From Fimbriimonadaceae bacterium (GTDB lineage: Bacteria; Armatimonadota; Fimbriimonadia; Fimbriimonadales; Fimbriimonadaceae), in the NCBI GenBank assembly GCA_019187105.1, contig JABAQM010000001.1, positions 1,054,001-1,118,000 of the forward strand: a DNA stretch of 64,000 nucleotides, given 5' to 3'. A program made the translations under genes and the position numbers. The notes under the pieces are model-generated. The model had not been told where the DNA came from. It made no database searches and worked only from the letters and a program-made list of their open reading frames with translations. Below are positions 733-25,033 of the stretch, in pieces. Positions within the stretch are counted from its first letter, which is position 1. Each line of letters begins with the position of its first letter.

Positions 733-1479
733 TTGACAAACAGGCTCGTCCTGAAACTCGTAACGCTTGCTGGTGCAGCCACCGCGGTGACGCAAGCAGG
801 AGCCGTGACGCTCTGGGACACCGGAGCACCTCACACGGTTATCTTCAACGGTTCGGAAACGTACCTTGGCTACTCATCCGGAAATCTGGACGCCAACAAC
901 CAGCAACGGTGGGCGGCGGTGCCCTTCCGGATCGGAGCCGGTGGCGCCGTCATCAAGCAGGTGAACGTCGACTGGTTTGTCGTTGCCGGCTCTGAAGCTG
1001 ACGCCGTCAACTACATCATCTGGAAACGGAGCGGTCTCGCGGCACCGGTCGATGGCGACCAAGTGTCATCCGGCGTACTTGGCAAGTTCGGAGTCGGCAT
1101 CGACGATCCGCGCACGAGCAACGTTGACGACTGGCTACACCAATACACCGGCCTGAACATTGGATTGGCCGCAGGTGACTATTACCTTTCCATTTATGGA
1201 GATGGCGGAACGGCGCCCAACAACTGCGCCTGGCTGACCGGTGGCGACCTGCAAGACGAATCCCTTGAACAGGCGTTCATGTGGCGTTCGGCTCTGTTCC
1301 CGAACCCCGGGTTCGTTCAGTATGCTCCCGGCACGATCTTGCCCGGAACGGGCATGTCCGACGCCGACGACCGATGGAACCCATCGTTCTCGTTGGAAGG
1401 CGACATCGTTCCCGAGCCAATGACGATGGCAGCCCTCGCGAGCGGATTCGTCGCCCTTGCCTGGCGACGCCGCAAGTAG
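733..1479 (+). CDS. PEP-CTERM sorting domain protein
   Basis: 248 residues beginning with TTG, chosen because a strong AGGAGGGG Shine-Dalgarno lies at 721-728 and a signal peptide (LVTLAGAATAVTQAGA) follows. The mature part is a beta-rich, aromatic domain with no motif I recognise. The C-terminus has the sorting signature: VPEP, a hydrophobic stretch (MAALASGFVALAW) and the basic tail RRRK. Such proteins are exported, processed by an exosortase and placed at the cell surface or in the extracellular matrix. No exosortase is in the window. It is monocistronic, ending in a strong terminator. A second protein of this type lies at 5110-5790. Confidence 0.9.
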   Translation: MTNRLVLKLVTLAGAATAVTQAGAVTLWDTGAPHTVIFNGSETYLGYSSGNLDANNQQRWAAVPFRIGAGGAVIKQVNVDWFVVAGSEADAVNYIIWKRSGLAAPVDGDQVSSGVLGKFGVGIDDPRTSNVDDWLHQYTGLNIGLAAGDYYLSIYGDGGTAPNNCAWLTGGDLQDESLEQAFMWRSALFPNPGFVQYAPGTILPGTGMSDADDRWNPSFSLEGDIVPEPMTMAALASGFVALAWRRRK

Positions 1480-2787: not shown

Positions 2788-3423
2788 ATGAGGCTAGGGT
2801 GCTTCGCTATTGCGACCATGATTCTGCCATGTGCAGCCGCCGCCCAGCGTGTCGCCAAGTATGTTGCGAACCTCGATATCTCCGCCGAACTTCCCATCAT
2901 GTCGCGTTACGATGCCGATCGCAAGCTTTGGCTCCATTACGGCGGTGGCTGAGACGGCGCCCACCGGCGCTTGGTCCTAAGCACCGACCCGATCGCGATC
3001 CTGATCAACGAAGGCTATTCGCCAAATGAAGGGACAGCCGCCTTAGAAGATGCGCTTACCACTTACGCGTTGCGTAGGGAGAAGGGCCAGATCGTCCCTC
3101 TTCGTGGTTATGACTACGGTTCAGGAAGGGGTTGGATAAAGGCTCGGATCGATCCCGTCAATGGGCTCGGCATCCGTATCGGGATGACGAAGGCCGAGGT
3201 TGAACGCATCGCCGGCCGGCCAACCAGGCGGTTGTTTAGCAAGAGATTCAAGTGCGACGAACTCGTGTATCACCGGACGACTTACTTGCGCGACGACCGC
3301 GGACGAGTTGAAAAAACAATGGATGGCGAGAAGCTAAAGGTCAGGTTAGCGAACTACTACCTGTTCCGCAATGGCCGGGTCTTCTTCATCGAAGCCAGCC
3401 AAGACCTCCTCAACGGGGGATGA
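2788..3423 (+). CDS. Small secreted protein with one in-frame TGA (candidate selenoprotein or nonsense allele)
   Basis: ATG at 2788 begins a signal peptide (MRLGCFAIATMILPCAAAAQ), then about 35 residues ending LWLHYGGG, then TGA at 2950-2952. The same frame continues at once as DGAHRRLVLSTDPIAI and runs to the stop at 3421-3423, giving 211 residues if the TGA is read. Downstream there is an SmpA/BamE-like element (GIRIGMTKAEVERIAGRP), known from outer-membrane lipoproteins. The TTG at 2971 could start the second half but has no ribosome site. A hairpin with a GGUCCU loop follows the TGA (separate entry). Alternatives are a recent TGG-to-TGA mutation or a sequencing error. I recognise no family for the whole protein. 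Confidence 0.5.
2966..2985 (+). other. SECIS-like hairpin after in-frame TGA
   Basis: GG (2966-2967) and GCTT (2969-2972) pair with AAGC (2979-2982) and CC (2984-2985) around a C/A mismatch. The apical loop GGTCCT begins 20 bases after the TGA at 2950-2952. Loop start (GG) and distance fit the loose bacterial SECIS rule, but the stem is short. Confidence 0.35.
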
Positions 3424-3434
3424 TAGGAGGCTTG

Positions 3435-3456
3435 GGTCGCCCGTTGGGCGACCTTT
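3435..3456 (+). terminator. Intrinsic terminator
   Basis: Perfect 8-bp stem GGTCGCCC / GGGCGACC with a GTT loop (3435-3453), then TTT. It lies 11 bases after the stop of the preceding gene and shows that transcription runs through the TGA-interrupted frame to its end. Confidence 0.75.
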
Positions 3457-5109: not shown

Positions 5110-5790
5110 CTATCGGACGCGTCGTCGCCGGCAAATCGCGACGATCCCGAGACCAAGCGCAGTCATCGTAGCCGGCTCCGGCACGGCTTCGACCAGCATG
5201 CTCACATCCGAGGTTCCAGGCATGAAGGACGCCCAATTCGAGTGACCATAAACGCCTGCGTAACCAAAGCTTGAGAAGTCACGGCTATAGCTCGGCCATT
5301 GTGGGTTGACGCTGCTTCGCAGGACATATCCCCAGTCGCTGCTCTGCGGCTGCAATTGGACAACGATATCAGTGCCGGGCGCCGGCAGTGCAAGATTGAG
5401 CCCTGCTGCCTCCACATAGTGGATATCAATCCCAAACATCGTATCGAAACGGTCAAACACGGCGGTAATCGAGACCGTTGCCGAGGAGTAGGCGTTCGTC
5501 TGTGGTGTCCCGCTGATGACTTCATGCACGGACACCAGCGCCGTCGTGACATTCGTATTGAAGACCAACATTTCGACGGCAACCTTGGTGATGGCGGTCG
5601 CCCCGTTGGGCACGGTCATTTGCTGACCCACCTGACAACCAAAGCTCGAGCCGAAGATGTTGCTGCCTCCATCCCAGGCGGCGTCGGCTGTATCGAATTG
5701 CTGACCCAGCTGGTTATAGACCGTAATCGCCTGGGCGGAAACGCCGATGGCGGCCAGACCCAAAACTACAAGCGCTTTCATAATGAACAT
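5110..5790 (-). CDS. PEP-CTERM sorting domain protein
   Basis: I place the start at the ATG ending at 5790, preceded by GGGAAAGGGAAATCAAC, because the signal peptide (MKALVVLGLAAIGVSAQA) begins there. An upstream extension is open but not signal-like. The mature part is a beta-rich domain without recognised motifs. It ends with VPEPATM, a hydrophobic segment (ALGLGIVAIC) and RRRRVR, the exosortase recognition signal. Like the protein at 733-1479 it is probably exposed on the cell surface or in the matrix. Confidence 0.88.
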   Translation of the reverse strand: MFIMKALVVLGLAAIGVSAQAITVYNQLGQQFDTADAAWDGGSNIFGSSFGCQVGQQMTVPNGATAITKVAVEMLVFNTNVTTALVSVHEVISGTPQTNAYSSATVSITAVFDRFDTMFGIDIHYVEAAGLNLALPAPGTDIVVQLQPQSSDWGYVLRSSVNPQWPSYSRDFSSFGYAGVYGHSNWASFMPGTSDVSMLVEAVPEPATMTALGLGIVAICRRRRVR

Positions 5791-5979
5791 GTTGATTTCC
5801 CTTTCCCGATTCCGAGTGGAACGGTAGACGGGTTGCATCCGGAAGCGATACCGTTGCAGCTTGGGGCGTCCCAGGCCCACTTCAGCCGTGCGATTGGGCC
5901 AAAAGTCCCGCTAAATGCAAGCGGTTCTGCGTTCTTCGCCTGTTACCGTGCGGTCTCGAACTGCGGACATAATCTGCCC

Positions 5980-23738: not shown

Positions 23739-23872
23739 ATACGCCCGAACATCGGGCCTTACTTCGGCTTCCGAAGAAACCGATCGACCACGTGAAAAAG
23801 AGCAACGATTCTGTTTCAAGGAAGGTCGACCCCGTGTCCCGTAACCCGGACCCCGGCCCAGCAACCCTTATA

Positions 23873-25033
23873 ATGAAATGCATGCTCTCCGCCCTACTTG
23901 CCCTCGCCATTCCCCAGGCAGTCGAACCCAATGCCGACAACTACCGGACCTGGCTGAAGTTCATCCAGCCCGACGCCAAGGAGCAGGCGTACAAGGAAAT
24001 TCCGTGGCGAAACCATTTCTGGACGGCGGTGCAGGAAGCGAGAACCCTGGGCCGGCCGATCTTGCTCTGGACGATGAACGGACATCCGCTCGGCTGCACG
24101 TGAAACAATGGCGTCCGCGGACGCCAGCTGGTCTGGTCAGACCCTGAAATCAAAAAGCTCAGCAGCGAGTTCGTTACCGTCGCCGACGAGGCTTACTACC
24201 TCTATCCCGAAAATCCCCAGCATCTGGAGCGAGCCCGCTCTCGCGAGGATCACCAGTTCTTCCGCCGCTATGGCGAGGCGATGCCAAAGGGCGACTGGAA
24301 TGCCGGCACGAAGCAGGGGATCTATATGATGGGGCCGAACGCGGAGTATCTGGAAGGACGCTTCGCCGCATCGGGCGAACCCGCCGATATCCGTGCCAGG
24401 CTGCAGCGTGCTCTCGATCGGTGGCAGAAGCTGAAGTCCGAAAGGGCCTACGCCGATAAGCCGATTCCACCCAAGGCATGGTCGCCTCCACCTGGGATAG
24501 AGGGGGAACTCGTCTTCCGTGTGAGCCTGCGCGACCTACCGCGAGGGAATGGCGACCGAAGCGGGGTGCGGCGGCATGAGCTGCCTGAATCGGGCATGTG
24601 GCGCGACTTCGTTCGATGGGCTTGGAACGAGAACTGGATCGCGCTCGCATCGGCTTCGATGCTCGTCCCCAAGGGCAACGACGCCGAAGCGGTCGATTCC
24701 GTGATCGTTAACCGTATCGCGCGCGAGGTCATCGTCGACAATGTCCGCGGCCAGGCGCCGGCGTGGCAGCCAGGCGAGGTTGTGGGCGCCAACCTGACGA
24801 TGAAACGGCTCGATACCCGGACCATCGAATACACCGGCGAGGTGGACTTGAGAGCGGGTGGCCGCAGCATCGTCGGCAAGATCTATGGTCGCGGCACTTG
24901 GACGGGCAAGTCCTTCGAGAGCCTGGACCTCGTGATGCTCGGTATGCGCCGGGGGGCATCCCGATTCAACCAGCGCGAAAACGACCCCGGACCGGCGTCG
25001 ATCGGGATAACGCTTAGTCTGAAACGACAGTAG
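23873..25033 (+). CDS. Thioredoxin-like secreted protein with in-frame UGA (candidate selenoprotein)
   Basis: ATG 23873 (or 23882) starts a signal peptide (MLSALLALAIPQA). Next come a helix and a thioredoxin-like strand (RPILLWTMNGHPLGCT), then TGA at 24101-24103. The frame goes on without a break as NNGVRGRQLVWSDPEIKK and on to the TAG at 25031, 386 residues in all. Cys-Thr-UGA sits where thioredoxins carry their redox pair, so Sec (or Cys in relatives) is reasonable. The region after it (GTKQGIYMMGPN ... LQRALDRWQKL) resembles, from memory, planctomycete proteins of unknown function. No usable start lies between the TGA and 24281. A GGUC hairpin follows (separate entry). A nonsense mutation is the alternative. 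Confidence 0.65.
24125..24146 (+). other. SECIS-like hairpin after in-frame TGA
   Basis: GGTCT (24130-24134) pairs with AGACC (24139-24143) around the tetraloop GGTC (24135-24138). Below a two-base CT bulge, CAG (24125-24127) pairs with CTG (24144-24146). The loop begins 31 bases after the TGA. The GGUC loop and a pyrimidine bulge on the 5' side recall the E. coli fdhF SECIS upper stem. A second perfect hairpin (24109-24126) lies just before it. Confidence 0.55.

Follow-up and report, generated by a model that had tools for sequence, protein, structure and literature searches.

A probable selenoprotein family with a U/C-D-G motif in Armatimonadota

The locus and its interrupted reading frame

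Within the window, by which we mean the whole 64-kb stretch of DNA analysed, an open reading frame (ORF) on the + strand (2788–3423) starts at ATG 2788 and runs for 54 codons to an in-frame TGA (2950–2952), beyond which a further 156 residues are encoded before the true stop (TGA, 3421–3423). An earlier, sequence-only reading had described a gene interrupted by TGA at 2950 and continuing in the same frame to a proper stop, which the read-through translation confirmed; its count of 157 residues past the TGA is here corrected. Read through, the ORF would encode a 211-residue precursor with selenocysteine (Sec) at residue 55, in the motif GGG-U-D-G-A-H, and homologues cover both halves of this product.

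The first part of the ORF (2788–2847, + strand) encodes a putative signal peptide region, MRLGCFAIATMILPCAAAAQ, judged by eye from a hydrophobic stretch followed by AAA-Q. Most homologues have hydrophobic N termini, and the protein is probably exported. The conserved C-terminal part (residues ~62–211; 2971–3420, + strand) shows a weak resemblance to BamE/OsmE proteins, discussed below. Beyond the stop lies a perfect 8-bp inverted repeat, GGTCGCCC-GTT-GGGCGACC (3435–3453, + strand), which is a possible weak terminator with a TTT tail only; an intrinsic terminator had been proposed at this place, and the repeat and the TTT are indeed there, but a terminator scan did not accept them. Elsewhere in the window, two predicted exported proteins with PEP-CTERM-like tails (VPEPMTMAALASGFVALAWRRRK; VPEPATMTALGLGIVAICRRRR) are encoded at 733–1479 (+ strand) and 5110–5880 (− strand).

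Homologues carry UGA or cysteine at a single conserved position

A single gene of this kind, viewed alone, would permit the reading of a pseudogene, truncated by a nonsense mutation (e.g. from TGG) or by a sequencing error, and we therefore compared the gene with its relatives. When the read-through protein was used as query against 61 relatives, a single homologue was found, encoded by a member of the same family but another genus (G017). This homologue is 38–45% identical and also bears a TGA, at the identical codon (GGG*DGAHRRLVLS in the window, GAD*DGSHRRLVLS in G017). A family-wide search returned six further homologues without a stop, all six with Cys at the TGA codon, and when 291 genomes from the phylum were searched with a profile, 26 gave matches, some of them weak and partial. 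The third TGA homologue (L063) is encoded by a member of the same order but another family (G050), with the context GGE*DGAYLGLVLS; a DNA-pattern scan of genome contigs found the G050 gene in an Armatimonadetes metagenome-assembled genome as well, as its sole match. No relatives were found when genome contigs were scanned with the protein as query, nor in a scan of viral contigs.

The final alignment comprised 21 sequences and left out L056, a more distant match in which the motif is absent; the remaining partial matches from the profile search were not informative at the TGA site. The evidence for the Sec form comes from three TGA homologues, the TGA of the window gene being kept in L002 and L063, and the other 18 sequences in this column carry Cys (TGC/TGT), with neither Trp nor any other residue found. 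The sequence-only reading had proposed that Cys at this position would support recoding and Trp a mutation; with Cys in 18 of 18 non-TGA rows the column favours recoding, and the suggested origin by mutation from TGG is rejected. The frame is conserved on both sides of the TGA throughout the 21 homologues, and its 3′ part is conserved across 37–45% identity. A truncated pseudogene is thus highly improbable, as the TGA occupies the same codon in three species from two families, the homologues carry Cys rather than Trp, the downstream frame is conserved, and the hairpin described below is common to the TGA genes only.

Only four positions are invariant in all 21 sequences (C/U55, D56, L64 and G132), and [U/C]-D-G forms the conserved core motif of the family. 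In two of the Cys homologues (L054 and L061) CDG is replaced by CDF or CDY, so the Gly following Cys-Asp is not strictly required. On the phylogenetic tree the Sec rows require at least two label changes, which indicates that Sec and Cys have been exchanged more than once or that one of them has been lost repeatedly.

The same comparison bears on whether the locus encodes two proteins, namely a 54-residue secreted peptide and the product of a second ORF of 150 codons starting at an internal TTG (2971). Both halves form one continuous ORF in the 18 Cys homologues, and TTG 2971 lies inside the hairpin and, in the AlphaFold model, within the strand just after the Sec turn, which makes this arrangement improbable in the extreme.

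A conserved hairpin downstream of the UGA

A hairpin with the loop GGUCCU had been noted twenty bases past the TGA, and we confirmed it at 2965–2986 (+ strand), with stem arms 2965–2972 and 2979–2986 and, 20 nt from the UGA, the loop at 2973–2978. The stem contains one C.A mismatch, and RNAfold gave a minimum free energy (MFE) of −9.9 kcal/mol for 2959–2991. This energy is only modestly better than that of shuffled sequence (z −1.74; matched by 9 of 200 shuffles) and is unremarkable by itself. In a mechanical scan of the 64-kb window, an open frame with a TGA and a following GGT[C/T]-loop hairpin turned up 15 times, so that the pattern by itself is weak evidence; homologues support two of the 15, at TGA 2950 and at TGA 24101, the other interrupted gene of the earlier reading. 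The pattern noted in that reading is thus real but of limited strength when taken by itself.

It is the comparison with relatives, not the folding energy, that raises the hairpin above chance. The 14-nt core GCTTGGTC[C/T]TAAGC is common to the window gene and the G017 and G050 genes, with the hairpin at the same distance, and neither the core GCTTGGTCYTAAGC nor a GGTC-loop hairpin was found at that place in any of the 18 Cys genes. The core constrains the second Leu of LVLS in the TGA genes to CTA or TTA, codons that account for 4.4% and 2.1%, respectively, of Leu codons when 27 long ORFs from the window are counted. Across the three TGA genes, 87.5% of the cells of the 8-pair stem pair, compared to at most 54% after shifting the partner by as many as 3 columns. 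A single compensatory pair was seen (C-G to G-C), a result reached in 166 of 500 shuffles, and a covariation test would need more than three sequences. The published limits for bacterial SECIS (bSECIS) elements are a G in the first two loop positions, a spacing of 16–37 nt and an MFE of ≤ −7.5 (PMC13188914), and the hairpin lies within all of them (loop GGUCCU, 20 nt, −9.9 kcal/mol).

Selenocysteine machinery in the TGA-bearing genomes

The genome to which the window belongs (G000) encodes a tRNA-Sec with anticodon UCA (69 bits; ARAGORN agrees) together with SelB (355 bits), SelA (445 bits) and SelD (347 bits), and is thus equipped with the Sec system for which the sequence-only reading had suggested looking. 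As the tRNA-Sec search also matched ordinary tRNAs in every genome, only matches of 66 bits or more and the ARAGORN UCA call were accepted as tRNA-Sec. SelA, SelB, SelD and tRNA-Sec are encoded in all three TGA genomes. SelA is present in all three of these as compared to 7 of the 18 Cys genomes (absent in 11), and it was not found in G095, the genome with the closest Cys homologue.

In each of the three TGA genomes, selD itself contains an in-frame TGA (L087, L088 and L089; context [A/C]G*ASKLGP) at the known SelD Sec site, which provides Sec decoding with an internal positive control. The hairpin loops of these selD genes are unlike the GGUC type.

It might still be supposed that the UGA is read as an amino acid other than Sec (Trp or Cys via a near-cognate tRNA, or through low-level programmed read-through) and that the hairpin is incidental. 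Against this stand the full Sec system with its UCA-bearing tRNA-Sec, the TGA in selD, and the conservation of the GGUC-loop hairpin at the cost of common Leu codons; we consider such a reading most unlikely. Taken together, the conserved UGA, its equivalence to Cys, the conserved hairpin and the Sec machinery strongly suggest that 2788–3423 is a selenoprotein gene in which UGA 2950 is very probably read as Sec, and incorporation of Sec at residue 55 would be expected.

Predicted fold and motif of the protein

The sequence-only reading had described an SmpA/BamE-like tail, which proved right as a weak resemblance in both fold and profile. The BamE profile PF04355 matched residues 129–161 with 16.5 bits, below its gathering cut-off of 23.2, and matched 5 of the 21 family members at E ≤ 0.1. 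The AlphaFold model (pLDDT 84.7, pTM 0.80) places the Sec turn between strands 47–53 and 59–65. VIA-align aligned 68–75 residues with BamE/OsmE structures (5d0o_E, 4dm5_A) at Z 5.7, within the background of unrelated folds, and the structurally aligned part is about 16–20% identical. The best structural match was YjgB (DUF4309) from Bacillus subtilis (PDB 4ygt; Z 7.9, rmsd 3.5 over 105 residues), but the two share 12% identity, and a VIA-align Z below 8 may reflect merely a common arrangement. Foldseek returned no match with E ≤ 0.001, and a sequence search of the PDB gave weak BamE and BLIP matches only. With the profile score below cut-off and a weak fold resemblance (Z 5.7), the protein was not filed as a BamE member.

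No redox motif had been recognized around the TGA. This is correct insofar as a UxxC/CxxU motif is absent, with no Cys within three residues of the Sec in GGG-U-D-G-A, but the [U/C]-D-G core is conserved throughout the family. Proteins of the family often lack a second Cys, and L002 and L063, two of the three Sec forms, contain the Sec but no Cys at all, so a separate reductant would be needed to reset the Sec, and a one-Sec mechanism appears to be the likeliest chemistry.

A second TGA-containing gene

A second TGA gene in the window (~23870–25033, + strand; TGA 24101–24103) encodes a Trx-like N-terminal region with the motif GCT-UGA-NNG and has no match in Pfam or NCBIfam. Relatives were found in 15 of 31 genomes, most of them with the TGA, and a GGTCTGGTCAGACC hairpin is conserved in the closest ones. 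One genome (G046) holds four matches to this family, three with TGA, which makes it a multi-copy selenoprotein family.

In the window, 21 kb separate the two TGA genes, which share a strand. In G017 (L003, G017:C1:934000-937500), the orthologue of the 24101 gene is found directly downstream of the orthologue of the window gene, on the same strand and separated by about 109 nt, and the pair are tandem selenoprotein genes. The relative in G050 is located on a separate contig, and neither G095 nor G009 contained a match to the 24101 gene. Since linkage was seen only in G017 among the genomes examined, the idea of a partnership is weak.

Proposed role and relation to known systems

According to the proposed mechanism, the hairpin with its GGUC loop 20 nt downstream would recruit SelB with Sec-tRNA(UCA) to UGA 2950. 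Once its signal is cleaved off, the exported product would measure about 190 residues and adopt an alpha/beta fold that loosely recalls BamE/OsmE, with two beta strands flanking the U-D-G-[A/S]-[H/Y] turn in which its one Sec sits. The Cys/Sec family to which it would belong occurs in Armatimonadota. In the cell envelope the product may possibly carry out a redox step of the one-Sec/one-Cys kind, involving peroxide, thiol or selenium chemistry, an assignment that we put forward tentatively from sequence. The reductant could perhaps be the thioredoxin-like selenoprotein with the CTU motif whose gene is directly downstream in G017. That an exported BamE-like Armatimonadota family with a lone U/C in a U/C-D-G turn partners the thioredoxin-like GCTUNNG selenoprotein in a selenium-dependent envelope redox pathway is a speculative extension, and we regard it as rather unlikely.

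The novelty lies in the protein family, and its decoding follows a known mechanism. Among the 119 prokaryotic selenoprotein families and subfamilies listed in a 2026 catalogue, no BamE-like or U-D-G-motif family fits (PMC13188914), and the window protein had no match above cut-off in NCBIfam and Pfam. No description of such a selenoprotein family was found in the literature searched, the scope of which excluded subscription papers and preprints, and an earlier report is possible; Armatimonadota were unmentioned in the selenoprotein surveys searched. Annotation pipelines would label the gene at 2788–3423 a truncated fragment or overlook it. The family adds a selenoprotein whose fold and motif depart from the usual thioredoxin-like ones, and the lone Sec in a presumably exported protein raises a testable question on selenium chemistry in the envelope. 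The Sec/Cys switch between near relatives (G000 and G017 versus G095) offers a natural comparison of the benefit of selenium to this protein.

Compared to BamE/SmpA/OsmE proteins (PF04355), to which it is linked by the weak profile match, a possibly similar fold and predicted export, the window protein is larger and has an extra N-terminal part bearing the U/C-D-G motif; in contrast to BamE, no clear lipobox was seen by eye. Thioredoxin-like selenoproteins carry UxxC/CxxU next to the Sec, which the window protein does not. FdhF and SelD are bacterial selenoproteins decoded via SelB and a bSECIS element, and it is the selenoproteins of this SelB/bSECIS type that the window gene resembles, in its in-frame UGA, a G-starting loop within 16–37 nt downstream, the SelA/SelB/SelC/SelD set and the existence of Cys homologues.
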